A DNA stretch of 64,000 nt from an uncultured Clostridia bacterium (GTDB lineage: Bacteria; Bacillota; Clostridia; Oscillospirales; Acutalibacteraceae), in contig CAMCHQ010000006.1 of NCBI GenBank assembly GCA_945874765.1, positions 62,001 through 126,000 of the forward strand, written 5' to 3'. Position 1 is the first letter of the stretch. Every line of letters begins with the position of its first letter. This document shows positions 1,730 through 23,221 of this stretch, piece by piece. A program made the translations under genes and the position numbers. A model generated the notes under the pieces. The model saw only the letters and a list, made by a program, of their open reading frames with translations, had not been told where the DNA came from and did not search any database.

Positions 1730-2890
1730 GTGTCTAAATTGAAAGTAAAATTTAAGGACTCCCAAATAACGGTTAAGAGTAAGCTTGCAAAGGACGAACA
1801 GATTAATGCCCGTGAGCTTGAAATTCTTAACTCTAAAATAATACGTGGAATTATGAAGCCGACTGTAGAAGGAGAAAAGAAATTATCCTACCTGTCTCCG
1901 AGCGGAATTAAACTTGAGGCATATTTGAAAAAGGGTATTTCCAAAAACGATTTCTTCTTGGTAATAGCGCAAATATTAGAGGCAGTTAAGTCTATCGGCA
2001 GAAACTCCTTTAATGTTAATAATTTGATACTTAATATGAAGTACGTATTCGTAAACGAGATGACGCACGAACTTCACTTTGTTTATCAACCTATTTATTC
2101 AAGCGCTATTGCATCAGATTTGGCTTCTTTTTTATATGATGTAGCATATTCCGTAACTCTTGCGCTCAATGAGGACTATAAGTGCGTTAATGATTTTATA
2201 GCCTATTTAAAGAGCTTGCAGGCTGTGTCGGTAATTAAAATAGAAAAATATTTGCTTGACGTTTATCCTCAAATTTATAAGCAGGTTAAAAGGCAGAAGT
2301 ACGGTCAAAGCGAATATCTCGGCTCGTTTAAAAACGGAAAAGATATTTACTATGATATGGATAACAGAAAAAGACCTACTCCTTTGGATGATGACGACGC
2401 CACCTCTCTTTTGGACGAAAGCGACGCTGACGAAGCAACTTCTCTATTGGAAGAAGAGGAAGACGAAGCAACCTCTCTATTGGAAGAAGAGGAGGACGAA
2501 GCAACCTCTCTTTTGATGGAAGATGAGGAAGAGGCAACGTCTGTTTTAATCGACGATGACGAGGCAACTTCTCTTTTGTGTGAGGGACCTCAAATATCTT
2601 ACCCTTATTTAATAAGAAAAAGCAGTTTTGACAGGGTTGATATTAATAAACCTGTTTTTCGTATCGGTAAGGAAAGAAGCTATGTTGATTATTTCGTGGC
2701 AAATAACAATGCGGTAAGCCGTATCCACGCCGATATTATTACTAAAAATAATTGCTGTTTTGTTAAAGACGAAAATTCCACAAACGGTACCTACGTGAAC
2801 GGCAGCAGGTTAAATCCAAATGAAGAGGTTCAGATTTTCGACGGCGATATTGTCACTTTCGCAAACGACGAATTTGAATTTCATTTGTAA
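1730..2890 (+). CDS. FHA-domain protein with acidic Thr-rich tandem repeat (DUF6382-like N-terminus)
   Basis: About 386 residues. I chose the GTG at 1730 because ACGGAGAAG lies six bases upstream; the longer TTG reading from 1709 has no RBS. Residues 1-190 form a domain resembling the DUF6382 region that often precedes FHA in Firmicutes. Residues about 219-284 carry six acidic (D/E)ATS(L/V)L units, three of them from a perfect-phase 33-bp DNA repeat. Residues about 290-386 are an FHA domain with RIGKE, SRIHAD and STNGTYVNG, so the phospho-Thr binding residues are present. Each repeat has Leu at T+3, the position FHA domains read, so the tail may be phosphorylated by the locus kinases and bound by FHA domains in cis or trans. 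No signal peptide; probably cytoplasmic. Confidence 0.85.
   Translation: MSKLKVKFKDSQITVKSKLAKDEQINARELEILNSKIIRGIMKPTVEGEKKLSYLSPSGIKLEAYLKKGISKNDFFLVIAQILEAVKSIGRNSFNVNNLILNMKYVFVNEMTHELHFVYQPIYSSAIASDLASFLYDVAYSVTLALNEDYKCVNDFIAYLKSLQAVSVIKIEKYLLDVYPQIYKQVKRQKYGQSEYLGSFKNGKDIYYDMDNRKRPTPLDDDDATSLLDESDADEATSLLEEEEDEATSLLEEEEDEATSLLMEDEEEATSVLIDDDEATSLLCEGPQISYPYLIRKSSFDRVDINKPVFRIGKERSYVDYFVANNNAVSRIHADIITKNNCCFVKDENSTNGTYVNGSRLNPNEEVQIFDGDIVTFANDEFEFHL
2429..2527 (+). repeat. 33-bp coding tandem repeat (DEATSLLEEEE units)
   Basis: Three consecutive 33-base units at 2429-2461, 2462-2494 and 2495-2527 encode 11-residue acidic units with ATSLL. Degenerate copies flank them on both sides. The DNA similarity of the first two is nearly complete, suggesting recent slippage or selection for more phospho-acceptor sites. 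Confidence 0.85.
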
Positions 2891-2920
2891 ATGTAATTGA
2901 ATTTTAGGCGGATTAAAAAA

Positions 2921-5900
2921 ATGAACGAAATTCCTGTTAATTGTTTTGATGATTCATTATTTGAAAGTGATTGCAAAAAACAAAGTGAAGTTATTAAACA
3001 GCAGTATCATAACAAATATTTTAACAAACAGTTTTCGATTTTAGGCGATTCTATTAGCACTCTTGTAGGATATAATCCGAAAGGCTACAAGGTGTTTTTT
3101 GATGAGCGTAACTGTGAAAAAGCAAGTATTCACGATATGAATGATACTTGGTGGGGAAAGGTTATTGAATTCTTTGGCGGCGAATTGCTTGTGAACAATT
3201 CTTGGTCGGGCAGTCGTGTTACCGGCAGTAGCGCAACTCTTTTTCCATCGGGATGCAGTGATGAAAGAACAGAGGGTTTACATATTGATAATACTAAGCC
3301 TGATGTTATTATTATTTATCTTGGCACAAACGATTGGGCAAAAGGTGCAGAAAAACACTGTGTTGATTACATATTGACAGAAGATTTTCATTGCCAATCA
3401 TTTGATTTTGCATATTCAATGCTCATTACAAAGCTTGAATCGAATTATCCTGATTCTGAAATATGGTGTTGTACTCTAAATACTACATTTATGTCATCAA
3501 ACCCTTCCTTCAAATTTCCTTATACTTACGGCGGGACGCATATTGAAGAATATAACCAAATTATTAAAGATACAGCGAATATGCATAAGTGTAAGGTTAT
3601 CGATTTGTATGATTACCATATCCCTTATGATTCCATAGACGGTTCGCATCCAAATGCAGATGGAATGAATACGCTGGCTACTTTGATGATAAGAGAAATC
3701 GGAGGAAAGGAAGTAGAAAGGTTTATGGATTTTGAAAATGAAAATAATGTTGAAAAAGTTGAAATGAATTTTTGTTCTCATTGTGGAAATGCAATAAAGC
3801 TTGAAGCTAACTTTTGTGCATATTGCGGTACTCCTGTGAATGAAAATTCTGAATTTGATATATGCCCTAATTGTAATCAGAGGACATTAAAACACTCTCT
3901 GTCATCTGATTATTGTACTAATTGTGGATTCAAGGCGCTAATTTATAGTGATAAATCCCCATATATATGGAATCCGTCGAACATGAATATTGATGATATT
4001 AAATGTTTCGGAGTATCTTTTGGCGATTGCCCTAATATCAATATATCTTTTGATAGCGATAAGTTAATTGTATGTAATCGAATTAATCCCCGAGACGGAG
4101 GAATGAATTTTCCTGACGGCTTTTTCAATGACAAGATAGTTAATCTTACAATTGAACAAAAAGAAAGCATAATTAATTTTATTAAGACTATAGATTTTAG
4201 TGCTTGGAAAACAGAAAGCCATACTATCGAAATGCTTGAATTAGGTGCATGTGGGTTTTATATATCTGAGTCGTTTTCCATTACATTTAATAACGGAAAC
4301 ACTTTTGTGTGCCATAATCCTGAGTACAAAGAATTTAATCAGTTAATAGATTTTCTTAAAAGTTTTTGTGACAACAGTTGGTTTGAACTTTATTACGGAG
4401 AAAAAGTTGAAGATGACACCGTATTACTTGAAGAGACATATGATTCAGATGCGGATTATGTCTTTTTGCCATCAGATATGACTCGTTTATTGTTTGATAA
4501 CACACTAAAGCTTTTTGATTCCGATGCAAATCAAAACATTGAAATGCAAAGCGAAAAGATTGATGTTGGCAGAAATTCGGAATGCGATATTCATATTGAT
4601 AATAATTATATATCGCAAATTCACGCTTCTTTTTATCATGAAGATTCTAGTTGGTTTATTATGGATAAGGGCTCAACAAACGGCACTTGGCTTAACGGTA
4701 AAAAGCTTGAACAAAATACAAAATATGAGCTTTATTGCGATGATGTAATAAATTTTTCAAAAGTAAAAGAGTATATTTTTTATAAAACAAATACGAAAGA
4801 AAACAAAGAATACAGTGAAGAGGAATTGCTTGGAATTTTAGAGGAAGCAATAGAACGATTTCATTCAAATAGTGACGATACAGACGCATTAAAAATAATT
4901 GCGTTAACTATGGCAGAGGTTCCTATTTATTTTCCGATGGATTATGATTTCTACGAAATGTTCGGAAACATTGATCCTTTACAGCTTAAAAAAGGGGAAA
5001 CCATAACCACTACCAAAGATGTCAAAATGAAAATTGTAACTTTGCAAGTTGGTGATGAAGAAATTGTGCCGATGTTTACATCTGTCGAACAGGCACATAA
5101 AGGTCCGGACGTAAATATTACAAGGCTGTATCCACAGGACTATTTGCCGATTGTAATATCTATGAATAAATCATTCGCATTGAATCCGTTTAACAACAAT
5201 GCAGTTTCGTTGAAATCCGGATTTTTAAGAGATATTGTCCTTCCTCTTGTGCAAGAAGCATTGAAAGATAAGGAAGAAAAAGAAACCGATAATGAATCGA
5301 AAGGAAATATTATTCCGATTGATGCTAATATCGGAACAGTTATTAATGACAGATACGAATTACTAAAACTCATTGGCGAGGGCGGAATGATAAAGGTATA
5401 TCTTGCCGCTGATAAAAGACTAAATAAGATGTGGGCGGTTAAGGTTGCTAAAACCGATACCCATAATAATTCAGATTTTGTTCGGGAAACTGTATTAAAG
5501 GAAGCAAAAGCGATGAAGTTGTTTGATCATCCTGCTATACCAAGGATTGCCGAGATTGTTGTTGATTCGCAACATATTGCAGTTGTACAGGATTACGTTG
5601 AGGGACCAACACTTAAGGATATCCTTGAAAATTACGGTGCACAACCTGAAGAGCGAGTAATTGATTGGGTAAAACAAGTTTGTGATGTATTAAATTATCT
5701 TCATGCATTTGATCCGCCGTATATCTATCGTGATATGAAACCAGGCAATTTAATGTTAGAGCCAAACGGAACGATAAAACTGATTGATTTCGGTATCATG
5801 AGAACATATAAGCCGAACAAAACAGAGGACACCTGTTTTCTCGGAACTAAAGGCTATGCTGCACCCGAGCAGTATGGTGGACGAGGTCAGACAGACGTAA

Positions 5901-6193
5901 GGACAGATGTTTATGGTCTTGGAATGACGATGTACCATTTGCTGACAGGGATTGATCCTCAAGAACTAAACTTTTCTGTAAAACCGATATGTCAAATAAA
6001 TCCTAATTTACCTAAGGGTTTGGAATTTATAGTGGATAAATGTATTCAACTTGATCCTGCAAATCGTTATCAGTCCTGCACTGAGTTGCTGAATGATTTG
6101 AATAGATATCAATCATGTGGTGAATTGGGCGAAGAGTTTGATTATCTTAAGGAAAATAAGAAGCTTAAAAAAAGATTTATGTTATTTGGATGA
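2921..6193 (+). CDS. Multidomain fusion: SGNH hydrolase, zinc ribbons, FHA, SseB-like domain, Ser/Thr kinase
   Basis: About 1090 residues from the ATG at 2921, preceded by TTAGGCGG; a TTG at 2897 gives a longer but less likely start. In order: an SGNH/GDSL hydrolase at about 35-270 with GDSIS (Ser near 44), LGTNDW and DGSHPN; two zinc ribbons at about 284-343 with CxxC pairs; an unassigned region; an FHA domain at about 530-625 with VGRNSEC and STNGTWLNG; an SseB-like segment at about 650-780; and a Ser/Thr kinase at about 807-1065 with GEGGM, AVKVAK, YRDMKPGN, DFG and the APEQ loop, all catalytic residues present. The kinase closely resembles the one at 8085-9845. A lone acidic TVLL motif lies near residue 508. 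Base composition looks more AT-rich than the flanking genes. No signal or membrane segment is evident, so the hydrolase acts inside the cell; its substrate is unknown. Confidence 0.85.
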   Translation: MNEIPVNCFDDSLFESDCKKQSEVIKQQYHNKYFNKQFSILGDSISTLVGYNPKGYKVFFDERNCEKASIHDMNDTWWGKVIEFFGGELLVNNSWSGSRVTGSSATLFPSGCSDERTEGLHIDNTKPDVIIIYLGTNDWAKGAEKHCVDYILTEDFHCQSFDFAYSMLITKLESNYPDSEIWCCTLNTTFMSSNPSFKFPYTYGGTHIEEYNQIIKDTANMHKCKVIDLYDYHIPYDSIDGSHPNADGMNTLATLMIREIGGKEVERFMDFENENNVEKVEMNFCSHCGNAIKLEANFCAYCGTPVNENSEFDICPNCNQRTLKHSLSSDYCTNCGFKALIYSDKSPYIWNPSNMNIDDIKCFGVSFGDCPNINISFDSDKLIVCNRINPRDGGMNFPDGFFNDKIVNLTIEQKESIINFIKTIDFSAWKTESHTIEMLELGACGFYISESFSITFNNGNTFVCHNPEYKEFNQLIDFLKSFCDNSWFELYYGEKVEDDTVLLEETYDSDADYVFLPSDMTRLLFDNTLKLFDSDANQNIEMQSEKIDVGRNSECDIHIDNNYISQIHASFYHEDSSWFIMDKGSTNGTWLNGKKLEQNTKYELYCDDVINFSKVKEYIFYKTNTKENKEYSEEELLGILEEAIERFHSNSDDTDALKIIALTMAEVPIYFPMDYDFYEMFGNIDPLQLKKGETITTTKDVKMKIVTLQVGDEEIVPMFTSVEQAHKGPDVNITRLYPQDYLPIVISMNKSFALNPFNNNAVSLKSGFLRDIVLPLVQEALKDKEEKETDNESKGNIIPIDANIGTVINDRYELLKLIGEGGMIKVYLAADKRLNKMWAVKVAKTDTHNNSDFVRETVLKEAKAMKLFDHPAIPRIAEIVVDSQHIAVVQDYVEGPTLKDILENYGAQPEERVIDWVKQVCDVLNYLHAFDPPYIYRDMKPGNLMLEPNGTIKLIDFGIMRTYKPNKTEDTCFLGTKGYAAPEQYGGRGQTDVRTDVYGLGMTMYHLLTGIDPQELNFSVKPICQINPNLPKGLEFIVDKCIQLDPANRYQSCTELLNDLNRYQSCGELGEEFDYLKENKKLKKRFMLFG

Positions 6194-6261
6194 AAACGGT
6201 AATCCGATTTTTAATTAATTACTTAATTTTATACTACATTTTATATTACGAGGTGTTAATT

Positions 6262-6453
6262 ATGAAAAAGAGAGTTATAGGAATTATATTGCTTATTGTT
6301 GATGCAATGGCAATACTTGGCGGATTTGTTAATGGCAGTTGGGCTGCGTTGGGTGATGATAATATCATAACTGCTGCTACACAAGTGATTGTACCTATAG
6401 TAATATTTGTTATTGCTATTATTTTAATAGTAAAATCGAAGAAAAACAACTGA
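6262..6453 (+). CDS. Small membrane protein, two spans, unknown function
   Basis: 63 residues from the ATG at 6262, chosen because GAGGTG lies six bases upstream; an upstream in-frame start at 6190 overlaps the previous gene and has no RBS. The protein has hydrophobic segments at about residues 6-24 and 39-58 and a basic C-terminus KSKKNN. I do not recognise a family. It lies between the kinase fusion and the PP2C relic in the AT-rich part of the locus and may have arrived with that segment. Confidence 0.55.
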   Translation: MKKRVIGIILLIVDAMAILGGFVNGSWAALGDDNIITAATQVIVPIVIFVIAIILIVKSKKNN

Positions 6454-6490
6454 TATAAATTTCATAGGAAAATATATGATTTTTATTAAA

Positions 6491-6645: not shown

Positions 6646-6661
6646 TTTATGGAGAAAAACG

Positions 6662-7291
6662 ATGAAGTTATGTAAAACCTGCGGAGCAAAGCTTAACGAT
6701 GATGCGGCATTTTGTTATATTTGCGGTGGTGCTGCCGTGCAAGCAGACACGATAAAAGCACCGACAGATTTTGATGATACAGAGGCAACAACAGTGCTCA
6801 ATGAAAGCGAATTTGATGATAAGGCTGAGGAAACAACAGTTTTAAGTGGCAATAGTCCGTATCAGAACGGCAATTCGTATCAAAATAACAACCTGTATCA
6901 AGGCGGTAATAATCAAAGTGAATACTCAAATATAATTGAAAAGCCTTCATTTAAGGATTGTTATATAAAGTTTTGGAAAAATTATACTAATTTTTCCGGT
7001 AGGGCAAGGAGAAGCGAGTATTGGTACGTTGTATTAGCGAATATTTTAATTTCTCTTGTAACTATGATACCTTATGTCGGACCGGTTATAGACGGTTTGT
7101 ATATGATAGCGATTTTAGTGCCTACGCTTGCTTTGATGGTGAGAAGATTGCACGATTTAGGTAAGGATTGGTATTATATATTCTTTGCATTGATTCCTTT
7201 GGTAGGTCAAATAATTATGCTTGTTTGGTTTTGTACTGACAGTCAAGTCGGCGCAAATGAATTCGGTGAAAATCCAAAGGGCGTAAATTAG
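6662..7291 (+). CDS. Zinc-ribbon, DUF805 membrane protein with TTVL motifs
   Basis: 209 residues, RBS GGAGAAAA before the ATG. Residues 1-23 are a zinc ribbon (CKTCG and CYICG). Residues about 37-63 hold two acidic Thr motifs, EATTVL and EETTVL, both with Leu three residues after the first Thr. A Gln/Asn/Tyr-rich linker follows. Residues about 97-209 match the DUF805 family, with FSGRARRSEYW, three or so hydrophobic spans and the RRLHDLGKDW loop. The protein is therefore membrane-bound with a cytoplasmic N-terminal tail that could be phosphorylated by the adjacent kinase and recruit FHA proteins. It lies 10 bases before the PP2C gene, likely co-transcribed. Biochemical role unknown. Confidence 0.85.
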   Translation: MKLCKTCGAKLNDDAAFCYICGGAAVQADTIKAPTDFDDTEATTVLNESEFDDKAEETTVLSGNSPYQNGNSYQNNNLYQGGNNQSEYSNIIEKPSFKDCYIKFWKNYTNFSGRARRSEYWYVVLANILISLVTMIPYVGPVIDGLYMIAILVPTLALMVRRLHDLGKDWYYIFFALIPLVGQIIMLVWFCTDSQVGANEFGENPKGVN

Positions 7292-7301: not shown

Positions 7302-8072
7302 ATGAAATATTTTGCATCAGCTGTTACCGATATAGGTAACACGAAGAAAACAAATCAGGACAGCGTTTGTGTAAAAATTGCACAAAGCGAAAAATACGGT
7401 CAGGTTGCAATGGCTGTCCTTTGCGACGGAATGGGCGGTCTTGACAAAGGCGAGCTTGCAAGCGCAACCGTTATCAGGGCATTTTCAAAATGGTTTGAAG
7501 AAGAACTGCCGTTATCGCTCAAAAAGCTTTCTTGGAGTGCTCTTTCGGACGAGTGGGAAAGAATAGCGAAAGAGCAAAACTATTTAATCGGTCAGTACGG
7601 CAACAAGATTGAAAGCTCGGTCGGCACAACTTTGACCGCTATGCTTTTTATTAAAGATAAATATTTGATTGCGCACGTAGGCGATTCACGTGTTTACAGC
7701 ATTACCTCAAGCGTTAATCAGCTTACCGAGGACCAAACGTTTATTGCAAGGGAAATCAAGGCGGGCAGAATGACGCTTGAGCAGGCTAAGGTTCACCCTA
7801 AGAGAAATCAGCTTCTTCAATGTATCGGTGCATCCCGTAATGTTGAACCGCAGATGATTTTAGGCAAGACGGTTAAAAACAGCGTTTATATGTTTTGTTC
7901 CGACGGTTTCAGGCACGTGCTTACAAATGAAGAAATTTACGAAAATTTCAATTTTGATAATTTAAACGATGAACAGGCAATGGAAAGAAACAGCAGATAT
8001 TTAATCGATTTGGTTAAAAGCAGAAACGAAAAAGATAATATAACTGTTGCTCTTATAAAATGTATCGGATAG
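7302..8072 (+). CDS. PP2C-family Ser/Thr protein phosphatase (PrpC/Stp-like)
   Basis: 256 residues, RBS AGGAG. It removes phosphate from Ser/Thr residues using two metal ions. Seen motifs: DSVCVK near 24, the metal-binding LCDGMGG near 42-48, SVGTTLTAM near 107, AHVGDSRVY near 125, CSDGF near 195 and the closing EKDNITVALI near 243-252, so the metal ligands are intact. It directly precedes the transmembrane kinase with 12 bases between, the classical prpC-prkC pair of Firmicutes. Probable targets are the kinases and Thr-motif proteins of this locus. Soluble, cytoplasmic. Confidence 0.95.
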   Translation: MKYFASAVTDIGNTKKTNQDSVCVKIAQSEKYGQVAMAVLCDGMGGLDKGELASATVIRAFSKWFEEELPLSLKKLSWSALSDEWERIAKEQNYLIGQYGNKIESSVGTTLTAMLFIKDKYLIAHVGDSRVYSITSSVNQLTEDQTFIAREIKAGRMTLEQAKVHPKRNQLLQCIGASRNVEPQMILGKTVKNSVYMFCSDGFRHVLTNEEIYENFNFDNLNDEQAMERNSRYLIDLVKSRNEKDNITVALIKCIG

Positions 8073-8084: not shown

Positions 8085-9845
8085 GTGGCAATTGAACGAG
8101 GAACCGTCATTGACGGAAAATATGAAATACTTAAACAGATAGGCAAGGGCGGTATGTCCGTTGTTTATCTTGCAATGGACTTACGACTTAATAAACAGTG
8201 GGCAGTAAAGGTTATTCAAAGAAGAGGTATCGGCAAAAATAACGAGGTGGTATTAAACAAAGTACCCGACGATACCGAGCTTATGAAAAGGCTTGACCAC
8301 CCGGCAATACCGAGAATTGTAGATATTATCGATAAAGAGGACGACCCTCAAATTTATATAGTTATGGACTATGTAGAGGGTGAGTCGCTTGATAAGGTAC
8401 TCGAGGAATGGGGTGCTCAGTCCGAAGAGGTTGTAATCGATTGGGCTAAGCAGATTTGCGATACTCTCGCTTATCTTCATTCCCAAAAACCGCCGATTAT
8501 TTACCGTGATATGAAGCCGGCAAACATTATGCTCAAACCCGAGGGTAATCTTAAAATTATCGACTTCGGTATTTCACGTGAATACAAGGAGCAAAATCTT
8601 GCCGATACAACAATACTTGGTACTAAGGGATATGCACCGCCCGAGCAGTTCGGCTCACGTCAGACAGACCCGAGGTCGGATATCTACGCTTTGGGTATGA
8701 CTATGCATCACCTTGTAACAGGCGTTGACCCGAGAAAGAACGATTACGTTCCTATCAGGCAGTGGAATCCCGAGCTTTCCGACGGTTTGGAAATCATTAT
8801 TGATAAGTGTGTTCAAATGGACCCCGATGACCGTTACCAAAACTGTAACGAGCTTATGTATGACCTTGAACATTATGAGCTTATCGGTATTGATTATAAG
8901 AAAAAGCAAAAGAAAAAACTTGCAATTTTCATTATATCTTTGACTCTTGCAATTGTTATGGCAATCGCAGGCGTTGTGGGTATGGCAGTTAAGCATAAAA
9001 CAGACGAAAATAATTATGAAAAATATGTTTCTTCAAACGGTTTGATTGAGGCTTCGGTTGATGCCGACACCACTGCTCAAAACTGCTTTAAAGCAATTCA
9101 GCTTGACGGCACGAAAACCGACGCTTATTTGAAATATATTGAAAAAAGTACCGACGCCGGTAAACTTCTTTCCTGCAAAACAAAGGACAGCGAGGATAAA
9201 GAGGTTACTTACGATATCAATACATTCAGTAAGGAATTCGGCGAAAATCAGGATAAATTAAAGCTCAACGGCGATTATGACAAACTTTGCTTTGAAACGG
9301 GATATGCGATATTTAACCTTTATCAAAGCGAAAGCGGTTCAAAACTTGAAGCTGCTTTGAGCGCACAAAAATATTTTGAATATGTTGTGGAAATGGGTGA
9401 AAGTTCAAGCTACTACAATATTGCAAACAGCTTTGACCAAATTTGTAAGTTCTATAACGATTTCGTAAATAACAGCAACGGCAATCAGGCTACAAACGAG
9501 GATTACAAAAAACTTGTTGAAAGCATTAAGTATTGCGTAACAGGCGATAATCTTGATAAGGGCTATCAGTTTAGTAAAAATCAGGTTTATGTTGAGCTTA
9601 CTCTTTATTATCAGTTTGAAAATCTCTTGAACGATTACAGAACGTCTTTTGCTAAAAACGGTGTTGACAAGAGTGCCGTAATTGAGATTTTTGACAGTAT
9701 AAATAATAATGCCGAAAAGATTGACGCTTCATCGGAAGTAAACGAGAAGCTTCAGAAAAAAGTGCTCGGCGCTTATAAGGATTATACAAAGAATATCGAA
9801 AGAGCGTATGAAAACGTCGCTAATTCAGCAGGAAGGGAGCAATAA
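8085..9845 (+). CDS. Transmembrane Ser/Thr protein kinase with helical extracytoplasmic domain
   Basis: 586 residues, GTG start after AGGACGG. The N-terminal kinase domain (about 8-270) has GKGGMSVVY, the ATP-binding Lys in WAVKVI, YRDMKPAN, DFG and GTKGYAPPEQ, so it should be active. A single membrane span lies at about 282-303, followed by about 280 mostly helical, charged residues outside the membrane. PASTA repeats, usual in PrkC/PknB, are absent. The order kinase, span, helical outer domain recalls EssB/YukC of type VIIb systems, whose kinase fold is inactive; here the active site is intact. It sits between PP2C and a small membrane protein and upstream of the EssC-like ATPase. Whether it replaces EssB is inference. 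Confidence 0.92.
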   Translation: MAIERGTVIDGKYEILKQIGKGGMSVVYLAMDLRLNKQWAVKVIQRRGIGKNNEVVLNKVPDDTELMKRLDHPAIPRIVDIIDKEDDPQIYIVMDYVEGESLDKVLEEWGAQSEEVVIDWAKQICDTLAYLHSQKPPIIYRDMKPANIMLKPEGNLKIIDFGISREYKEQNLADTTILGTKGYAPPEQFGSRQTDPRSDIYALGMTMHHLVTGVDPRKNDYVPIRQWNPELSDGLEIIIDKCVQMDPDDRYQNCNELMYDLEHYELIGIDYKKKQKKKLAIFIISLTLAIVMAIAGVVGMAVKHKTDENNYEKYVSSNGLIEASVDADTTAQNCFKAIQLDGTKTDAYLKYIEKSTDAGKLLSCKTKDSEDKEVTYDINTFSKEFGENQDKLKLNGDYDKLCFETGYAIFNLYQSESGSKLEAALSAQKYFEYVVEMGESSSYYNIANSFDQICKFYNDFVNNSNGNQATNEDYKKLVESIKYCVTGDNLDKGYQFSKNQVYVELTLYYQFENLLNDYRTSFAKNGVDKSAVIEIFDSINNNAEKIDASSEVNEKLQKKVLGAYKDYTKNIERAYENVANSAGREQ

Positions 9846-9847
9846 TA

Positions 9848-10390
9848 ATGACAATAAATACAGTTTCAATTGTTTTTTTCGTTATTGCTGCAATTTCACT
9901 TCTTGCAGCGATATATACGTTTATCAGATTTAATATTCCTCAGGTTATAGGAGAACTCAGCGGTAGAACGGCGAGAAAGTCTATTGCCCAAATGAGAGAT
10001 GAAAATGCAAAATCGGGAAATAAGGCTCACCGTCCGTCACCGGCGGCAGTTGAACGTGGCACGTTGACCGATAAGATTGAGGAAAAGCCTAAACCGTCAC
10101 CTAAGGCGGAGAAAAAGGCAGGGGAAAACGCAATCGAGAGTGTTGACCCCAATGCAACCGTTGCACTTAAAAACAGTATTTATGACGACAATGCAACTGT
10201 TCCTCTTAAAAATCAGGCGCCCGGCGAGCAGACCGATATTTTAAGCGATGGGACTGAGCTTCTTGCAGATAATGAAACAACCGTTTTAAACGACGACACT
10301 CCTCAGCCGAGCGTCACCCAAAATGTTAAAACAGACGGATTTGAAGTTATTAAAAGTATTGTTTTAATTCATACGAATGAAACAATTTAA
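9848..10390 (+). CDS. Single-pass membrane protein with three acidic TxxL motifs
   Basis: 180 residues, starting three bases after the kinase stop with GGGAGC upstream. A hydrophobic span covers about residues 6-28; the remainder is a charged, low-complexity tail, probably cytoplasmic. The tail carries three Thr motifs: NATVALKN near 101, NATVPLKN near 117 and ETTVLND near 144, each with Leu at T+3. I do not recognise a family. Its position beside the kinase and its motifs suggest a membrane scaffold phosphorylated by that kinase and bound by FHA domains; that role is inference. Confidence 0.7.
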   Translation: MTINTVSIVFFVIAAISLLAAIYTFIRFNIPQVIGELSGRTARKSIAQMRDENAKSGNKAHRPSPAAVERGTLTDKIEEKPKPSPKAEKKAGENAIESVDPNATVALKNSIYDDNATVPLKNQAPGEQTDILSDGTELLADNETTVLNDDTPQPSVTQNVKTDGFEVIKSIVLIHTNETI

Positions 10391-16400: not shown

Positions 16401-16730
16401 ACAAGCTATAATGGCAAGTTTACAATCGGTGAATGTACTAAGGAAAATGTAAGATTTGTCATCACCGACCTTGCAGGCAATGTTACGGATACGGGCGATA
16501 CAAATAATAAGGCTGTTAATTTCGATTCATCATCACTCGACTTTAACTCAACTATCACCGTATCAACAAACCCGCTTACCCGCTGGTATGCTCATACTGT
16601 TCTCTTCTGGTGCAGTATTGCAGTAATTGCAGTAGCTCTCGGCGCAATCGGTTTTGTTGTTGCCACAAAACTTCGTAAGAAGGAAGAAAAAGCAACAGAG
16701 GATTATAAAAATTCAAAAAAGAATAAATAA
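10422..16730 (+). CDS. Giant surface protein with repeated Ig-like domains and C-terminal membrane anchor
   Basis: 2102 residues, strong RBS AGAGGAGGT. Residues 1-34 form a signal peptide with a KKSVSKK head, hydrophobic core and FAAI cleavage zone. The body is a chain of beta-rich Ig-like modules; recurrent phrases such as DKTAP, VTVTA and DKAGNK mark boundaries, and two units near 1410 and 1560 (YERNFS and VEHNFS) look like recent duplicates. A membrane span at about 2058-2080 is followed by a basic tail; no LPxTG sorting signal is present. Placed between kinase/scaffold genes and the EssC-like ATPase, it may be a surface component or stalk of the secretion system. I do not see an EsaA/YueB match. 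Confidence 0.85.
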   Translation: MVNKKSVSKKLIAILLAVVLVIGTLPVGFASVFAAIKNGYTISIKDYDYSGVVTLIDKNNADNKFTQEMTKGKAKFDNLDDETAYDLKITNLYGYEDYSNDNFVPSDNLFELGNADLKAIDTVKVSGKIVDEKGVDVKNLEFTYAPAGFTDISFNGKTDNDGKYSFDVYKDVEYSLTFNVDNKKYNEVKKTVNVSNDIDFGDEQLSLKQFSISATVSGNGGNITGNNTMIDYGNDLQKDTIVATADKNYVIDTLKVDSEEIEDAKGKESYDLSNVSALKNVKDTHSVSVSFYRPTYEITINYNENGTVKDNSDNHLVTSGGKIILKQGDVAGFTAVAKTNYHIAKVEIDKNVNDNFNNSTTKYSETFNDNKAHSVTITFAINTFNVTVNSGKNGTATASPATVDYNGSTDITITPDKGYDIETVKVNGLDVDNLTETENGYKYTISNITADVTVEANFKEIEKVDVDDVLKNDYCTISFSETPVVIGNKYIVGKGGSVTITPVDPYYRVKVNGELPKSTITYNKTKVINDIQISTNKFVGGWDKTYSANIEFVVDSTGPEITNIKKTPDQDYYNKAYNISFGVTDDIAGVDSVYYGTENDITKAKEATFDSASGKASFTTTDDEFYGSYYIWAKDKVGNKSSTSVKINIDKTAPTIDSFEFSANTLNACKHGTYASEDIKVTITASDKNSEVANSGVKEITFNGKTEPVNNGEAEFTITSADKTPVSATVTDNAGNTSQITVPTEKNSNVKSNLVTISDTPPTATITIADNQKENLKRYNAENGIVWFNGDADFKVDLTDDNGIKYIEVTLNGEKINTVKDSDNNDLKIFDGEGKKDIDFSEAKETKKTIFVNTALKSKTGQNKLEVKVTNVTNRLNEKSENGNLYIDTKAPKITKFEFNKSESFKDKLLHILTFGAYSNTTVEVSVTAEDENASSGINSITLYGKDATNTSAEYKILGTESMSAENKNIVKNEDGIYTATFTLPKDVVETEKGKTYLDVLLAAKAVDNVKNETKDFAPATTGNSNIKTAQLMIETVAPEATITCPNLVGDKNPETDDHNDWCGADTDFNVSINDANSGIRNVSVKVNGTDIFKDSDGVSIDENFYERTEMINDLSFRVNTNLATRADDGSYTIKVDATDNAGNVMTSVTKTIYKDISVPTVKDFKFTSKGYAFDKSVENANTAPVEETSYGYYFIKDTEVTVTADDAKPTSGVKSITYYTVDKDGVKSEEKTELVNKDNQITFTVKANFKGQIYAKACDNVGHTPSTFSKPNGAVIESPDLHTQTSAIKYTLKDSKDSNGVDIKDEKGNNLYGADTTVDVEVADTYSGIRRIDWEIVSPFDDKKQAGTVTVDNNGKVTSVAKKGYSDDCLGDWVATGEANTNLVVNLKNTIKVSNDSNDIKIKFTLTDRAGNVTKDVVQTLSIDKTAPKIAVQMNENDDNEFNGYFKGSREADIYVYERNFSQSDVVFDVKRTDDNNKQTNVSPKPKFKYVGTQVIDGRECFVYKMTTKFKADGDYNFKVSASDITSHIANAESVNFKSDNKSVKFSSDKTAEYTSQNDTDRAIDVSFTIDNTNPVVSVSYDNNTAANEKYFNAYRTATLTVVEHNFSTAASRIIYKRTSAKDGANINEPAVSSWSRKGNTYTATIKYNADGDYTFDMQVIDKAGNKDKGVKYNGTAAKDFTVDTTIAKPSIKGVENGKSYKASVLPSISFNDINIANSEIKLLRTRKNEINKDVTSDFIKISKNAKGGSFKANEETFKKLQENDGIYTLSVNISDKAGNKSSETVKFTVNRFGSVYALNKYLVNDLNNSYVQSIDNNLVITEYNPDKLVNGKLDVVVTRDGSPVDFGDGQLTVNPVVNSTVQIGQSGWYQYNYTISKDLFTDDNGKAIDGIYKIYVASEDEVGNKSENINYKDADIMFRLDTTAPSLKSVAGLEKSVVNAAKLDVNYEIFDSIGLKSIDVYYVNENGIDAVDHIRSKDSKEENVAGYIEDVTSYNGKFTIGECTKENVRFVITDLAGNVTDTGDTNNKAVNFDSSSLDFNSTITVSTNPLTRWYAHTVLFWCSIAVIAVALGAIGFVVATKLRKKEEKATEDYKNSKKNK

Positions 16731-16744: not shown

Positions 16745-16777
16745 ACAGTCGGTGCGACTAAACACCGCACCGACTGT
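16745..16777. terminator. Perfect 12-bp hairpin, possible terminator or processing site
   Basis: ACAGTCGGTGCG at 16745-16756 pairs exactly with CGCACCGACTGT at 16766-16777 across a 9-base loop. No T-run follows on the plus strand, while an A-run precedes it, so it would act better on the minus strand. It lies just after the giant surface gene and could be a partial terminator or mRNA-stabilising structure. Confidence 0.55.
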
Positions 16778-16939: not shown

Positions 16940-19900
16940 ATGCAGGATTTTTCAGGCGAAACAAGCAGTTTGAACAGTGAAGTAAACTATAGTGAAGTTA
17001 TATATCCGATTCGTGTTGTTTTAATTGCAGACAGCGGAGAAATTCTCACATTGCTTTTACCCGATACTATGGAGGGAAGATATAAATTCACCGATTCATT
17101 CGGAATCGAAAAAAATCCTATCCATTTTGAAGCTGAAAACGGTAAATGGGTTGCAAATTTGGAAAAGCCGGCATATTTCTTTATGTCCGCTCAAAACGGC
17201 GAAAAAAATTTAGGTCAAAAACACAGTATGGTTTTAAATACTATGTTTCGCTTTAAATATAAAAATGAAAAATATACTGTTTATGCCGAAGAAGAACATC
17301 CGGGCGACCATGCCTTTTTGTCTTATTACATTGAGGAAAGAACCGATTATATAATCGGTCGTACTAATAAATGTGATATTTGTTATCAAAATCTTGCAGT
17401 GTCACGTGAGCATGCACGTCTTTGTTGGAACGGTAATCAGTGGTCAATAGTTGATCTTAACAGTACAAACGGTACATATTTAAACGGAAAGAAAATAGAT
17501 AAGGCTGTTCTTAATGTCGGCGATATTATTTTTATCGTAGGACTTTATATTATTATCGGTTCGGGATTTATTTCTATTAATAATTATAATAACAGGGTGT
17601 CGTTTAACACTCCTAAAATCAGGCATATTGTGTCGCAAAGCGAACTTTCTTATTCACCGCCTTTGTCGAAAAGCAATTATGCTCTTTATGAACGTGCCCC
17701 GAGAAAAATGATGAATATTGAAGCACAGCCGATTGAAATTGAAATGCCTCCTATGTCACTTAAAGGCAATAATATTCCTCTTCTTTTAAGGCTCGGTTCG
17801 CCGATGCTTATGGGCGGACAGGCTTTGATGACCGGTAATATTATTATGGCGATGACAAGTATGGTTTTGCCTACATTGACCCAGGGCTTTACAGAAAAGG
17901 AAAGACGTGAGTATGAAGCGAAGAGGCTTGAATCTTACAGAAAATACCTTGCACATATCCAAAAGTCAATTGACGACGAAAAAACGCAAGAAGAACAGCA
18001 ACTCGATTTCAATTATCCTAATCTTGATAACACGCTTAAGCTTGCCGCTACGCAAAAACGACTTTGGGACAGACGTAAAAGCGATAACGACTTTTTAAAA
18101 GTACGTATCGGTTACGGTAATTTTCCTATGCTTGCCGAAGTGAAATATCCGCCGAAAAGATTTCAGGTTGAAAGCGATGTTTTGGAAAATGAGATGTATG
18201 AAATAGCGGAGAAGCCGGTTTTGCTTAATAATGCACCCGTTATGTACTCGCTTGTGGAAAATTTTATCACCGGTGTTGTAGGAAACAAGCGTTCGGTAAT
18301 AGAAATGATGAAGCGTATTATATTACAGCTTGCTGCAACTCACAGCTATGACGAGTTGAAAATTGTACTTGTTGCAGATGCTTCCGATGCCAAAGCGCTT
18401 AATTTTGTTCGTTATCTTCCGCATAATTGGTCAAATGATAAAAACATCAGATTTTTTGTTACTAATCAGGAAGAAGCACAGCAACTGTCAAATTATTTTA
18501 ATAAAGAAGAGGAGCAGTCAAATAAATATTCTAAATATAATATCACCGACGGAATATCATATGTTGTTTTTGCTTTGAACAAAACGTTATTTAATTATAT
18601 TTCGCCAATCGGTAACGTGCTTTCAAAAACCGAATATGAGGGAATTTCGCTTGTTGTATCATTTGACGTGTTGCCTAAGGAATGCGGTAAAGTAATTTAT
18701 CTTGAAAATCAACCGCAGATAGTTGATTATTTTCATCCCGAAAAGGGCAATCAGCAGTTTACTCTTGATAATTGCGATGACAGGATTGCGACAGTAAGCA
18801 TTAAAAAAATTTCCGAAACAAAGATAAATACCGAAAGTGCGGGATATATGCTTCCGAATATGGTGACTTTTCTTGAAATGTATAACGTCGGAAAAGTTGA
18901 ACATCTTAACCCGACTGAAAGATGGAAAAATAATAATCCGGTAAAATCGCTTGCCGCACCGATAGGCGTAGGTGTTGACGGAAAACTGTTTAATCTTGAT
19001 TTGCACGAAAAGTTCCAAGGACCGCACGGTTTGGTCGCCGGTATGACGGGTTCAGGTAAGTCTGAATTCCTTATTACATATATTTTGTCAATGGCAGTTA
19101 ATTACAGCCCCGACGAGGTTGCGTTTGTTTTAATTGACTATAAAGGCGGTGGCTTGGCTGATGCTTTTGAGGATAAAAACAGGGGAATCCATCTTCCGCA
19201 CCTTGTCGGCACAATTACAAACCTTGACGGCGCATCAATTCAGCGTTCTCTTATGTCTATAAAAAGTGAACTTAAAAGAAGGCAAACCGTTTTCAAGGAA
19301 GCAAAGAGCCAAACAAATGAAGGAACGATGGATATTTACGATTATCAAAAGCTTTATAGAAATCATAAAGTGTCTCAGCCCGTTCCTCACTTGATTATTA
19401 TATCCGATGAGTTTGCGGAAATGAAAGCACAACAGCCTGAATTTATGGATGAGCTTATCAGTACTGCACGTATCGGTAGAAGCCTCGGTGTTCATCTTAT
19501 TCTTGCAACGCAAAAACCGAGCGGTGTTGTCAATGACCAAATCAGAAGTAACACAAAGTTTCAGGTTTGTCTGCGTGTTCAGGACCGTTCTGACAGTATG
19601 GATATGATTAAACGTCCCGATGCGGCAGAACTTAAAAATACAGGTCGATTTTATTTGCAGGTCGGATATAATGAACTTTTTGCTCAAGGGCAGTCTGCTT
19701 GGTGCGGAGCTGAATATACTCCGAGTGATGAAATAGAAGCGGCAAAAGATGAATCCGTTCAATTTGTTGATAATGTCGGTCAATCTATAATCAGCGTTAA
19801 AAAAGAGGCTGAAAAGGTTAAAACAGGTACCAAACAAATTGTTTCGATAGTAAAGTACTTGTCCGACCTTGCAAAACGCAAAAAAATTGAGCCTAAAAGT

Positions 19901-21634
19901 CTTTGGCTCAATCCGTTGCCGAATTGTCTTGATTATGATGACCTTGCAAATCAATACGGCAAAAATTTGGGCGGCACAATGACTGCGCTAATGGGTATGG
20001 TTGATGACCCTGAAATGCAAAATCAATTTCCGTTAATGATTGATATGATGAGCCTTCATCATATGCTTATCTACGGCGGAGTTGCCAACGGTAAAAGTAC
20101 ATTTGTGCGTACGTTGCTTTTGAATTTTGTTGAAAGGTATTCTCCCGAAAACTTCAATTATTACATTTTGGATTTATCGGCAGGTGCACTCAGAGCATTT
20201 TCAAAACTTCCTCATTGCGGTGCATATCTTACCGATGCAAATGACAGCGATTTTAAGAGATTGTTTGCACTTATAGATGATGTGATTGAGGAAAGAAAGA
20301 AAATTTTTGCAAAAGCGGATGTCACAAATTACAATTCATACTGCAATATAGCTTCAATGTCAATGATATTTGTAATTATTGACGGCTTTTCAAATATCAG
20401 GAATTTTGCCGCCGGTGAGGATGTTTATTCCACACTTCAGGATAAATTAAACGATGCGGCAAACTACGGTATAAAGTATATCGTTACTGCCAACCGTCCC
20501 GGCGATTTTAATATGAAAAGCAGAGATGAGTTTGACTATAAGATAGCTTTTAATGCAAAAGACCGTTATGATTATAACGATATGCTCGATACAAAATGCA
20601 CATTTACTCCGCCTCAGCTTGCAGGCAGGGGACTTTGTGTTGTTGATGAGAGAGTTCTCGAACACCATATTGCAATGCCTTATTGTGATAAGGAAGAACA
20701 AGAAAGAACCTCTCTTTTGAAAGAAAGGCTTCAGGGTATCGCAGCTCGGTATTCCGATACGGGCAATGTTAAAAAATTACCTATGCTTGATAAAGAACAG
20801 GAATATGCCGACTTCTGTAAGGATTTTGATAAGAACTGTCTGCCTCTCGGTTACGTTGTATCATCAACAAAACCGGTGGCTATGCCGTTTCATCAGCTTT
20901 ATTCGTTGTCGTTATATTTCGGTAATCCCGACGGCGTCAAGCCTGTGTTTGACAATTTTATTTATGCTTGCAAACACAACAATATGGACTTGATTATTGT
21001 AAGGAAAAGTGTTGATACCGTTTTTGGCGGTCAATACGAAAAGGAAATCAAAGCTGATACTGCATTTGACACAACAATATTTGACTGCGACAGCGAAAGC
21101 CTGAGAGAATTTTCAAAAACAATGTTTGATGAAATTAAGGCAAGAAATGTATTTCGTGACGAGTATTGCGAAACACATTCAATACCTAAAACAGATAAAA
21201 CAAGGGCAAGGCAGGCGGAAAAATATATTCGCTCAAATACAAGAGCGCTTATGGTTATTTTTGAAAGTTTCGGCGATATTTGCCATGCCGAAAAAGACGA
21301 TAATTTAGTTCTTGAACTCAGCACATATTTTTCTAAATTGAGAAGCTATAATATTTACTTTACAGCTTGTTTTTATCCGGATGATGAAAGCTCGCTTACA
21401 ATAGATTCTCTTATGAAATGTTTTAATAAGGAAGAAAACTATCTTCTCTTCGGCGGTCAGTACGGCAAACAAAATATATTCGATTTGCCTATGGAGTATC
21501 GCAGAATAGAACAGATTAATCCTAATTACAACAGATATTTATTCAAATACCGTGGTCAATGGTATGCAATGCATATGCCTTGCGGTCAAATTAACAATGA
21601 CGTCGGCGACGAGGAAGATATGTCAATCATTTAA
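16940..21634 (+). CDS. essC: Type VII secretion ATPase, FtsK/SpoIIIE family with FHA domain (EssC/YukB-like)
   Basis: 1564 residues, RBS AAAGGATA; the motor of type VIIb secretion, near the size of known EssC/YukB. Residues about 120-210 are an FHA domain with IIGRTNKC, SREHAR and NSTNGTYLNG. A hydrophobic stretch at about 277-318 gives the membrane anchor. The first FtsK domain has Walker A GMTGSGKS near 700 and IIISDEFAEM as Walker B; the second has GGVANGKST near 1046 and VIIDGF; a third C-terminal domain (about 1290-1560) shows no clear Walker A. This is the EssC layout. The first domain keeps the full consensus and is likely the active ATPase. Its FHA could bind phospho-Thr motifs made by the locus kinases. 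Stop is followed closely by the YukD-like gene. Confidence 0.93.
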   Translation: MQDFSGETSSLNSEVNYSEVIYPIRVVLIADSGEILTLLLPDTMEGRYKFTDSFGIEKNPIHFEAENGKWVANLEKPAYFFMSAQNGEKNLGQKHSMVLNTMFRFKYKNEKYTVYAEEEHPGDHAFLSYYIEERTDYIIGRTNKCDICYQNLAVSREHARLCWNGNQWSIVDLNSTNGTYLNGKKIDKAVLNVGDIIFIVGLYIIIGSGFISINNYNNRVSFNTPKIRHIVSQSELSYSPPLSKSNYALYERAPRKMMNIEAQPIEIEMPPMSLKGNNIPLLLRLGSPMLMGGQALMTGNIIMAMTSMVLPTLTQGFTEKERREYEAKRLESYRKYLAHIQKSIDDEKTQEEQQLDFNYPNLDNTLKLAATQKRLWDRRKSDNDFLKVRIGYGNFPMLAEVKYPPKRFQVESDVLENEMYEIAEKPVLLNNAPVMYSLVENFITGVVGNKRSVIEMMKRIILQLAATHSYDELKIVLVADASDAKALNFVRYLPHNWSNDKNIRFFVTNQEEAQQLSNYFNKEEEQSNKYSKYNITDGISYVVFALNKTLFNYISPIGNVLSKTEYEGISLVVSFDVLPKECGKVIYLENQPQIVDYFHPEKGNQQFTLDNCDDRIATVSIKKISETKINTESAGYMLPNMVTFLEMYNVGKVEHLNPTERWKNNNPVKSLAAPIGVGVDGKLFNLDLHEKFQGPHGLVAGMTGSGKSEFLITYILSMAVNYSPDEVAFVLIDYKGGGLADAFEDKNRGIHLPHLVGTITNLDGASIQRSLMSIKSELKRRQTVFKEAKSQTNEGTMDIYDYQKLYRNHKVSQPVPHLIIISDEFAEMKAQQPEFMDELISTARIGRSLGVHLILATQKPSGVVNDQIRSNTKFQVCLRVQDRSDSMDMIKRPDAAELKNTGRFYLQVGYNELFAQGQSAWCGAEYTPSDEIEAAKDESVQFVDNVGQSIISVKKEAEKVKTGTKQIVSIVKYLSDLAKRKKIEPKSLWLNPLPNCLDYDDLANQYGKNLGGTMTALMGMVDDPEMQNQFPLMIDMMSLHHMLIYGGVANGKSTFVRTLLLNFVERYSPENFNYYILDLSAGALRAFSKLPHCGAYLTDANDSDFKRLFALIDDVIEERKKIFAKADVTNYNSYCNIASMSMIFVIIDGFSNIRNFAAGEDVYSTLQDKLNDAANYGIKYIVTANRPGDFNMKSRDEFDYKIAFNAKDRYDYNDMLDTKCTFTPPQLAGRGLCVVDERVLEHHIAMPYCDKEEQERTSLLKERLQGIAARYSDTGNVKKLPMLDKEQEYADFCKDFDKNCLPLGYVVSSTKPVAMPFHQLYSLSLYFGNPDGVKPVFDNFIYACKHNNMDLIIVRKSVDTVFGGQYEKEIKADTAFDTTIFDCDSESLREFSKTMFDEIKARNVFRDEYCETHSIPKTDKTRARQAEKYIRSNTRALMVIFESFGDICHAEKDDNLVLELSTYFSKLRSYNIYFTACFYPDDESSLTIDSLMKCFNKEENYLLFGGQYGKQNIFDLPMEYRRIEQINPNYNRYLFKYRGQWYAMHMPCGQINNDVGDEEDMSII

Positions 21635-21646
21635 CGGAGGTGCATT

Positions 21647-21895
21647 ATGGATAAAATTTTAATTTGTCTGCAAGTTCCTGCAATCAGCAGGTCGTTTGAT
21701 GTATTCGTTCCTCTTGATATGAACATAAATGATTTGACACAGGTGCTGGTAAAAGGCGTAATCGAAATGAGCGATAATTCTTATATTTCTTCAAAGGAAG
21801 AAAATTTGAATTTGAAAAATAATGTTTTGCTCAATCCCTCTCTTACTTTGCAGTCATATGGAATTAAAGACGGCGAAGAAATATTTATGATTTAG
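21647..21895 (+). CDS. esaB: YukD/EsaB-like ubiquitin-fold protein of type VII secretion
   Basis: 82 residues, RBS GGAGGTG, 12 bases after the EssC-like gene. Small YukD proteins have a ubiquitin-like fold and are a conserved part of type VIIb systems. The visible pattern fits: an opening beta strand (ILICLQVP), FDVFVPLDMNINDLTQVL as a strand-helix region, LLNPSLTLQSYGIKDGEEIFMI as the closing strand with the typical DG turn. No diglycine tail is present, as expected for YukD. The context next to EssC makes the call strong although sequence identity in the family is low. Confidence 0.85.
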   Translation: MDKILICLQVPAISRSFDVFVPLDMNINDLTQVLVKGVIEMSDNSYISSKEENLNLKNNVLLNPSLTLQSYGIKDGEEIFMI

Positions 21896-21908
21896 CCGGA
21901 GGATTAAT

Positions 21909-22127
21909 ATGGATAATGCAATGCATGTCAAATTTAGCGAATGTGAGCAATATATCGCCGGACTAAAGGCACAAAATAATCGTGCAAGGGAAAACATTAT
22001 AAATTCTTTAGACGGTGAACTGCGTGATGAATATTTAAAGTCATGTGATATTGCAGACGCATATATCAAAAAAATTGAAAAGGAATTACAAGAGCTGCGC
22101 AGGTGCTTGGCATTGCTGGAGTGTTAG
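21909..22127 (+). CDS. Small helical protein of the type VII locus
   Basis: 72 residues with a strong GGAGGA RBS, 13 bases after the YukD-like gene. Predicted as two long charged helices (about 8-34 and 38-68), a coiled-coil hairpin like ESAT-6 proteins but shorter. There is no WXG motif and no YxxxD/E tail. I do not recognise a family. The position among secretion genes suggests a substrate, partner or chaperone. Confidence 0.6.
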   Translation: MDNAMHVKFSECEQYIAGLKAQNNRARENIINSLDGELRDEYLKSCDIADAYIKKIEKELQELRRCLALLEC

Positions 22128-22179
22128 GTGTTTTGACAGCTTGTAATAATAAAAAATTTTATGTAAGGAGAAATTGTAA

Positions 22180-22491
22180 ATGAAAATACATACAAGTGAC
22201 AGAGCTTCTGCTGAAAAATGGTTAAAAGAAGTTGAAGAACTTAACAATGAAACAGAGGCTACTGTAAAGGCTGCCGGACAGGCAGTTAAAAATATCAGCG
22301 AAATGGCTGACGGTACATTAATCGACGAATTGGTTTTGGGCGGCGACAAGCTTATGACTATTGCTGTAGACCTCAGCAAAACAATGAGCGGATTTACTTC
22401 TATGGTAAATAACATATTGAACATAGGCGAAGATTTTGTTAAAAACGGAACTAAGTATATAAAAGATGCGTTTAAGAACATTCTTAAATGA
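22180..22491 (+). CDS. Small helical protein, candidate WXG100-like substrate
   Basis: 103 residues, RBS AAGGAG. Helical, with EKWLKEVEELNNET at residues 12-25 and an amphipathic second half containing MSGFTSMVNNILNIG. Length and helical content match ESAT-6/WXG100 proteins, but the WXG turn is not present and no YxxxD/E signal is visible. No signal peptide. It follows the 72-residue protein in the secretion operon, so a secreted helical-hairpin substrate or a partner is the best guess. Confidence 0.6.
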   Translation: MKIHTSDRASAEKWLKEVEELNNETEATVKAAGQAVKNISEMADGTLIDELVLGGDKLMTIAVDLSKTMSGFTSMVNNILNIGEDFVKNGTKYIKDAFKNILK

Positions 22492-22506
22492 TAGGAGGAA
22501 TATAAA

Positions 22507-22872
22507 ATGGCAGAAACACTTAAAATGAAAGTCGATTTATCAGACTTTTTGACAGCTCAGGGAACATTGCAAACTCAAATAGGTAAACTTCAAAGTCTTC
22601 TTGAAAGATATTCCAGCGTAAAAAAGAGAGCAAATGAATTTATCGAGGATGATGACTCTCGTTACGCAAAAATGCAGGAAGTTATTGATCAGGAAATTAA
22701 AAAGGTTAGAGCTCAGCTCAAAGTAGTGGAAAAAATCAAAAGACAAATCGATGAAGTTGTTAAGGCAATGGATTCATTGGAAAATAAATCTAACCAGGTT
22801 ATTGAAGAAGGCAAGAGTACTGTTAAAAACGGACTTGAGAGCATTATCGATCTCAGCGATTTAGACCTTTAA
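22507..22872 (+). CDS. Coiled-coil protein, candidate type VII substrate or LXG partner
   Basis: 121 residues, RBS AGGAGG. Long heptad-like helices cover about residues 10-105, with an acidic end (IIDLSDLDL). It resembles small helical partners of LXG toxins and WXG100 proteins in architecture, but no diagnostic WXG, LXG or YxxxD/E motif is seen. Lies 15 bases after the preceding small gene, so the two could be a co-translated pair. Confidence 0.6.
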   Translation: MAETLKMKVDLSDFLTAQGTLQTQIGKLQSLLERYSSVKKRANEFIEDDDSRYAKMQEVIDQEIKKVRAQLKVVEKIKRQIDEVVKAMDSLENKSNQVIEEGKSTVKNGLESIIDLSDLDL

Positions 22873-22882
22873 TTGAAAACTT

Positions 22883-23221
22883 ATGTTTTATTTAGACACA
22901 AATAAATTATCATTTTGCATTGATGATACTTTAGAACAAAAAAGAACCGCTCAAAAACTTTCTGATAAGATACATAGTATTAAGCGTCTGACTTATTCAA
23001 AATATAATGTGGACAGAAACTTATTATTAAAATTCCAGCGTCTTACCAAAGAAAGCGAAAATTTGGTTAATTATTATTCAAAGCTGTCGGTAGCTCTTGA
23101 CTCAACGAAAACCGACGCTGTTAAAATGATAAATCAAACTAATCAAATGATGGAAAACTATTTGGATATTTCAAAAAATTTGATGAATAAAAATATCAGA
23201 ATTGACATAGATGATAAATAA
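22883..23221 (+). CDS. Small helical protein closing the type VII operon
   Basis: 112 residues from the ATG at 22883, ten bases after the preceding stop, with only a weak RBS, suggesting coupling to the upstream gene. Predicted mostly helical and polar, with a Met/Asn-rich second helix (TNQMMENYLD). No recognised family or export motif. The operon terminator at 23263 follows, making it the last gene of the secretion unit. Confidence 0.6.
   Translation: MFYLDTNKLSFCIDDTLEQKRTAQKLSDKIHSIKRLTYSKYNVDRNLLLKFQRLTKESENLVNYYSKLSVALDSTKTDAVKMINQTNQMMENYLDISKNLMNKNIRIDIDDK

Follow-up and report, generated by a model that had tools for sequence, protein, structure and literature searches.

The window analysed here, a stretch of 64,000 nucleotides from the genome of an uncultured Clostridia bacterium of the family Acutalibacteraceae (contig CAMCHQ010000006.1), carries between positions 1709 and 23221 a same-strand run of 14 open reading frames (ORFs) taken as genes, all 14 on the plus strand. 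By its component set, the locus appears to be of the type VIIe secretion system (T7SSe) kind. We put at about even the chance that it is built of two units, an export core and a phospho-control cassette of five genes, J-F-D-H-I, which gates the core. The cassette has a fixed order, and it is common to loci linked to EssC and to loci linked to Tad pilus genes.

T7SSe was defined in Bacillota by Garrett, Higginson and Palmer in 2024 (PMC11217815). Its components are the WXG100 proteins A and A2, the YukD-like B, a C protein whose N-terminal FHA has conserved phospho-Thr residues, the membrane kinase D, the PPM phosphatase F, the one-helix proteins H and K with disordered tails, the giant Ig-like protein I with its signal peptide and C-terminal helix, and the soluble DUF6382-FHA protein J. 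Control by threonine phosphorylation was already proposed there, and the phospho-control idea for such loci is published, not new. TseB, TseC, TseD, TseF, TseI and TseJ all have counterparts in the window, the solubility of J only by a reading of its sequence. The definition has both TseH and TseK, and one H/K-type gene was seen; for TseA/TseA2 there was no Pfam WXG100 match above the cut-off, and a WXG100-like hairpin was modelled with moderate confidence. Window and published T7SSe both combine, within a single locus, EssC with FHA, B, a membrane kinase, a PP2C phosphatase, DUF6382-FHA, a giant Ig protein and a one-helix protein; the window differs in adding a GDSL-FHA-kinase fusion, a DUF805 protein with Thr motifs and four small helical proteins, and in having one H/K-type gene and no WXG100 protein by Pfam. 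An original prediction, made from the sequence alone, had called the locus type VIIb-like, which was the wrong bin, the component set being that of published T7SSe. The type VIIb (T7SSb) set of EssA, EssB and EsaA was not found: in the whole genome (99.14% complete), there was no YukC/EssB match at E 10, no EssA above the cut-off (best 13 bits) and no EsaA above the cut-off, and EssA and EsaA/YueB had correctly been reported as missing. An EsaA-N-like segment was seen on another contig (G000:C7:65465-65929), in a 712-aa open frame, with 67.1 bits against a cut-off of 122. T7SSj (PMC11217815) shares the A, B, C, D, F, I, J and K types but is described in a few Clostridium species, has no H and has a D protein ending in TPR.

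The EssC gene (C, TseC-like; 16940-21634, plus strand) scored 937.3 bits against the TIGR03928 model (cut-off 778.4) and carries an FHA domain, as had been predicted. The closest solved chain is B. subtilis YukB (9qks_G, E 6e-115). In the FHA domains of EssC (IGR..SR.H..NGT) and of the second kinase of the locus, the Arg, Ser, His and Asn of phospho-Thr binders are all present. Behind EssC lies B (TseB-like; 21647-21895, plus strand), a YukD-like ubiquitin-fold protein whose Pfam score of 23.4 bits is below the cut-off of 27; the YukD/EsaB-like name is backed by the position behind EssC and by conservation in relatives. Four small helical proteins follow on the plus strand: s72 (21909-22127; supported by an alignment, no Pfam WXG100 match), s103 (22180-22491), s121 (22507-22872; supported by an alignment, Pfam matches of coiled-coil type only) and s112 (22883-23221; supported by an alignment). 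With window-grown profiles, all four were consecutive behind YukD in 8 of 12 loci, and three of them in 2 more. The suggestion that they would model as helical hairpins held for s103 as far as the model goes (two helices, pLDDT 69); Esx/WXG100 or PE/PPE chains made up 28 of the 50 listed PDB matches, all at E >= 0.47. ESAT-6 chains were absent from the result of a PDB profile search with the s103 alignment, which consisted mostly of coiled coils and designed helical bundles, and neither LXG nor WXG100 scored above its cut-off in the genome. The s103 protein is likely of TseA type. The export core is predicted to comprise EssC, the YukD-like B and the four small helical proteins, of which one or more would be WXG100-like. 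Four genomes have a further EssC type, 1657-1662 aa long and following an FHA protein of 185-189 aa (L068, L071, L072 and L075, in G040, G050, G016 and G071).

The cassette begins with J (TseJ-like; 1709-2890, plus strand; start TTG 1709, or GTG 1730 as chosen originally, both possible), which consists of DUF6382 (40.8 bits, Pfam cut-off 26.7), an acidic linker and FHA (55.2 bits). F (TseF-like; 7302-8072, plus strand) is a PP2C phosphatase (Pfam 31.6 bits; NCBIfam Stp1 model 171.8 bits, below its cut-off of 230). D (TseD-like; 8085-9845, plus strand) has a kinase domain (Pfam Pkinase 176.2 bits) followed, as read from the sequence, by one membrane helix and a helical outside domain. H or K (TseH/TseK-like, called H here; 9848-10390, plus strand) has an N-terminal helix and a tail, again from sequence, and no Pfam family. 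I (TseI-like; 10422-16730, plus strand), the giant surface protein of the original prediction, is a 2102-aa Ig-like protein (Pfam Big_13 31.2 bits) with a signal sequence and a C-terminal helix, both ends being assigned from sequence. A second kinase (2897-6193, plus strand; 149.7 bits) lies between J and F. The kinase and PP2C domains, and the FHA domains of J and the second kinase, are all above cut-offs. By eye, the catalytic motifs are intact: RDMKP and DFG in both kinases, DGMGG and SDG in the PP2C. The two Ser/Thr kinases with intact active sites and the PP2C stand as originally described, and the "two further FHA proteins" turned out to be J and the second kinase itself.

To place the cassette in relatives, EssC was searched for in 80 genomes of the genus and matched in 15, own included, while a search of 300 family genomes for DUF6382 gave a match in 38. 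A total of 53 contigs were annotated with profiles grown from the window proteins plus the Tad genes of one relative; one locus, L062, was dropped as a copy of L005, and the window was counted in the contig tallies and in the D-kinase tree. J was present on 42 contigs: 14 carry EssC, 14 carry three or more Tad genes, 2 carry both and 12 carry neither within the stretch. All of J, F, D, H and I were present on 9 EssC-linked, 6 Tad-linked and 3 other contigs; such shares should not be read as frequencies, the sets having been drawn partly by EssC and many stretches being cut. In relatives, too, EssC is thus linked with genes for a kinase, PP2C and FHA proteins, as the co-occurrence check of the original prediction asked. 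In the six Tad-linked genomes (G081, G162, G179, G188, G215 and G330), J comes downstream of the Tad-type genes, separated from the last of them by 0 to 5 genes. None of the six has an EssC above the TIGR03928 cut-off, five having one FtsK-like match of at most 123.4 bits and G162 none; the search that covered them took in 20 genomes, 3 of which do have EssC, and G188 is only 83% complete. The Tad loci have CpaF, TadB, TadC, Flp and TadE-like genes instead of EssC and YukD. In one of the six, L088, the Pfam matches (27-91 bits) cover the ATPase, two T2SSF proteins and a Flp1-like pilin, the last of these below its cut-off, while two TadE-like proteins were named by eye, not by Pfam.

Non-iterated searches with J, F, D, H and I of the window each matched all six Tad-linked cassettes, the weakest match (E 4e-4 for 100,000 sequences) being that of H in G188. 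Used by itself, the outside domain of D matched 2 of the 6, and the DUF6382 part of J reached E 0.01 in 4. When 21 D-type kinases were placed in a tree, the Tad-linked six did not form one clade (AU p 4.5e-6), since the EssC-linked G016 and G050 are interspersed with them, as is the unlinked G356. Therefore, linkage switched at least twice on that tree, whose root is arbitrary and on which the direction is not readable. Tad-type genes, DUF6382-FHA and EssC were seen together on single contigs (G304:C30, with L092 and L143, and L005), possible intermediates between the linkages. A phylum survey of 398 genomes found DUF6382 in 33. Among 30 stretches from 29 genomes (G000, G205, G576 and G680 outside the set, the second DUF6382 stretch of G578 counted separately), 24 have at least two Tad genes beside DUF6382, 1 has EssC and 5 have neither; the EssC-bearing stretch, L190, also has J, F, a kinase, H, I and B. 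Since 24 of the 30 stretches are Tad-linked, DUF6382 looks like mainly a Tad-locus protein in that sample, and T7SSe seems to be one of the systems that draw on a common module. The genes for kinase, phosphatase and adaptor thus have the look of a mobile control unit, which relatives attach to another surface machine, the Tad pilus. The statement that active kinases and a phosphatase are physically part of the locus is true of the window, but the arrangement is not type VII-specific, the same cassette standing beside Tad genes in six genomes. J, F, D, H and I are therefore unreliable type VII markers, given six genomes in which they adjoin a pilus locus and EssC above the cut-off is absent.

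An AlphaFold2 model of J residues 1-210, built from 48 sequences, reached pLDDT 92.3 and pTM 0.88. Foldseek comparison with the PDB gave 11 matches at E <= 0.001, the leading ones kinases or pseudokinases; they include PAN3, the STK40 kinase homology domain, TraF-N (8cba), 6z0f (YukC/EssB) and PknB, as well as 9qks_C, a chain of the T7SSb core unit that is probably YukC. The sequence of J has no HRD and no DFG. DUF6382 is thus predicted with high confidence to be a pseudokinase, a kinase fold without catalytic motifs. With TM-scores of 0.31-0.54 by query length among the 50 listed matches, this prediction is limited to fold class and does not extend to close kinship with EssB/YukC. The original claim that no EssB pseudokinase is present is right by sequence, but the model points to an EssB-like pseudokinase in the locus, fused to an FHA domain. 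J would share the kinase fold and the absence of catalytic motifs with EssB/YukC and TraF; unlike them, it carries its own FHA and has no sequence similarity detected, and, by sequence reading, window J has neither the membrane helix nor the outside domain that EssB has. The YukC pseudokinase is described in PMC13037476 as binding the FHA of YukB; by analogy, J could be the hub of a complex.

It is also conceivable, if rather unlikely, that D itself substitutes structurally for EssB, a bitopic kinase scaffolding the EssC complex with catalysis secondary and with J, F and the motifs tuning it slightly. D does share the EssB topology of kinase fold, helix and outside domain, a remark also made in PMC11217815, and the bitopic likeness of TseD to TraF (PMC13037476) points the same way. 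The catalytic motifs of D are intact, however, PP2C lies beside D in all 18 full cassettes (by the definition of that set) and in most partial ones, and the hub could be DUF6382, a further kinase fold that is predicted to be catalytically dead.

Candidate phosphosites were sought in the J linkers and H tails of relatives. FHA domains often prefer a hydrophobic residue three positions after the phospho-Thr, and bacterial kinases often target activation-loop-like sites. Exact k-mer ranking was set aside, as it was dominated by FHA and Gln/Pro-rich words; instead, four- and five-letter words in a seven-class alphabet were counted in 48 J linkers and 23 H tails (12472 aa, window excluded, rows mutually related) and compared with shuffles of the same stretches. 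Thr-Thr-hydrophobic-hydrophobic occurred 58 times against a shuffle mean of 2.5 (maximum 7) and was the top of 471 four-letter words; preceded by D/E/N/Q, it occurred 45 times against 0.7 (maximum 4), the top of 269 five-letter words. T[TS][VLI]L was found in 26 of the 48 J linkers (50 motifs versus 0.5) and 13 of the 23 H tails (21 versus 0.6). A strict form, [DEN]xT[TS][VL]L, was picked after the window and relatives had been viewed, so that its counts are not blind and the word test is less choice-dependent; leaving out L115 (the window's genome), the window, overlapping ORFs and unannotated ORFs under 100 aa, it was carried by 12 of 48 J, 10 of 23 H, 4 of 16 other FHA proteins, 2 of 2 DUF805 proteins and 1 of 24 other kinases, against 4 of 586 unrelated ORFs of at least 100 aa. 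The window itself has six strict motifs in J, two in its DUF805 protein and one in H. Those of J are [DE]-A-T-S-[LV]-L repeats in its linker (2396-2578, plus strand; residues 230-290), candidate phospho-Thr sites; H has four relaxed motifs beside its strict one, all in its tail (10151-10288, plus strand). The words resemble the D-type activation loop, [DE]-T-x-x-[LI]-G-T, which is present in 21 of 21 kinases (Thr-Thr in 16). These enriched, activation-loop-like words therefore nominate candidate phosphosites in J linkers and H tails. The GarA/OdhI FHA switches hold a Thr-Thr motif and an FHA in one small protein; the window, in contrast, has motif arrays, a predicted pseudokinase domain in front and linkage to a secretion ATPase.

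Gene content, gene order in relatives, the DUF6382 fold, the Tad-linked cassettes and the word enrichment are the computed basis of the two-unit scheme; the steps from phosphorylation onward are what we infer. D would sense an envelope signal, perhaps through I, which would reach outside, and the targets of its phosphorylation would be the activation loop of D itself together with the similar Thr motifs in J and H. Docking on phospho-Thr would fall to an intact FHA domain, either that of EssC or that of the second kinase, J would act as an EssB-like hub that gathers the ATPase complex, and F would reverse the phosphorylation set by D. Where the cassette is Tad-linked, it would gate the pilus machinery instead. 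A more tentative proposal is that Tad pili and type VII systems have exchanged a portable phospho-Thr module, which gates both via multisite phosphorylation of activation-loop-like Thr repeats; given such an exchange, EssB of T7SSb may be a phospho-independent relic of such a pseudokinase hub.

Several observations weigh against the gating scheme. The TM-scores of DUF6382 are modest, and its sequence profile found no YukC in the PDB at E 10. Of 49 J domains, an FHA residue pattern picked up 23, and in 20 of these, window J included, Lys replaces the usual Arg; the same pattern picked up 10 of 24 EssC proteins, all 10 with Arg; accordingly, the EssC FHA is, by these residues, the more likely phospho-Thr reader, with J rather as a ligand. 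The strict motif was in none of 32 EssC, 18 D, 37 F, 23 I and 57 small proteins. No association was found between J-linker motifs and a kinase in the locus (Fisher p 0.33 in 41 family loci and p 1 in 18 phylum loci, window excluded). Phylum-wide, 4 of 19 J linkers have the motif (5 motifs against a shuffle mean of 0.47, maximum 4) and 1 of 19 the strict form; outside the family the motif is weak.

That the motifs do not track kinases would suit another reading, namely that the kinase, PP2C, FHA and Ig genes form an independent envelope-signalling or adhesion system that adjoins secretion or pilus operons without controlling them. The occurrence of the cassette with EssC, with Tad or with neither in the stretch, and the 209-base gap with a strong hairpin between cassette and EssC in the window, speak for it as well. 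We nevertheless regard it as improbable: the cassette is repeatedly linked to two secretion-type machines, the window EssC FHA has the full residue set, and DUF6382 lies beside Tad genes in most phylum stretches. A classical T7SSb with EssA, EssB and EsaA diverged past recognition would agree with an EssC that passes a model named for Firmicutes EssC, but we reject it as very improbable, because no YukC, EssA or EsaA was above cut-off genome-wide and the T7SSe component set was found instead.

Gene neighbourhood is the basis on which T7SSe was defined, and phospho-control has been proposed for it; the predicted pseudokinase, the candidate phosphosites and the module shared with Tad loci make that proposal directly testable. 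In the openly licensed PMC literature searched (preprints excluded), no earlier description of the Thr-motif/FHA link was found, nor one of a Tad-kinase-FHA cassette among the papers listed, as judged by titles and opening lines of abstracts, and DUF6382 was found in PMC11217815 alone. Relative to the published record found, the points that go beyond it are the predicted pseudokinase fold of DUF6382, the portable cassette with its Tad linkage and the candidate Thr phosphosites.

The second kinase combines a GDSL esterase, a zinc ribbon, FHA, SseB and a Ser/Thr kinase domain in a single chain, by Pfam. Such GDSL-Ser/Thr kinase fusions were seen on 5 of the 53 annotated contigs (the window; L004, 7673-10312; L137, 2682-6371; L136, 475-3093; L111, 7351-9480), each with EssC on the same contig; the GDS motif is present in all five and DGSHP in four. 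Between the second kinase and F, the plus strand encodes an 87-aa hydrophobic membrane protein (6190-6453; no Pfam family above cut-off) and the protein with a zinc ribbon and a DUF805 membrane domain (6662-7291; Pfam DUF805 87 bits), whose two Thr-Thr motifs, at residues 41 and 56, lie at 6782-6844. The hairpin between I and EssC (16745-16777) has a fold z-score of -6.2 and is followed by a T-run on the minus strand only; a plus-strand terminator was rejected for this lack of a T-run. Just downstream of the locus, a nucleotidyltransferase and HepT-like pair (24327-24952; Polbeta 58.6 bits, HepT-like 63.4 bits) resembles a MntA-HepT toxin-antitoxin pair. On the other side, divergent from the locus, a LytTR response regulator (690-1403, minus strand) is a possible regulator.

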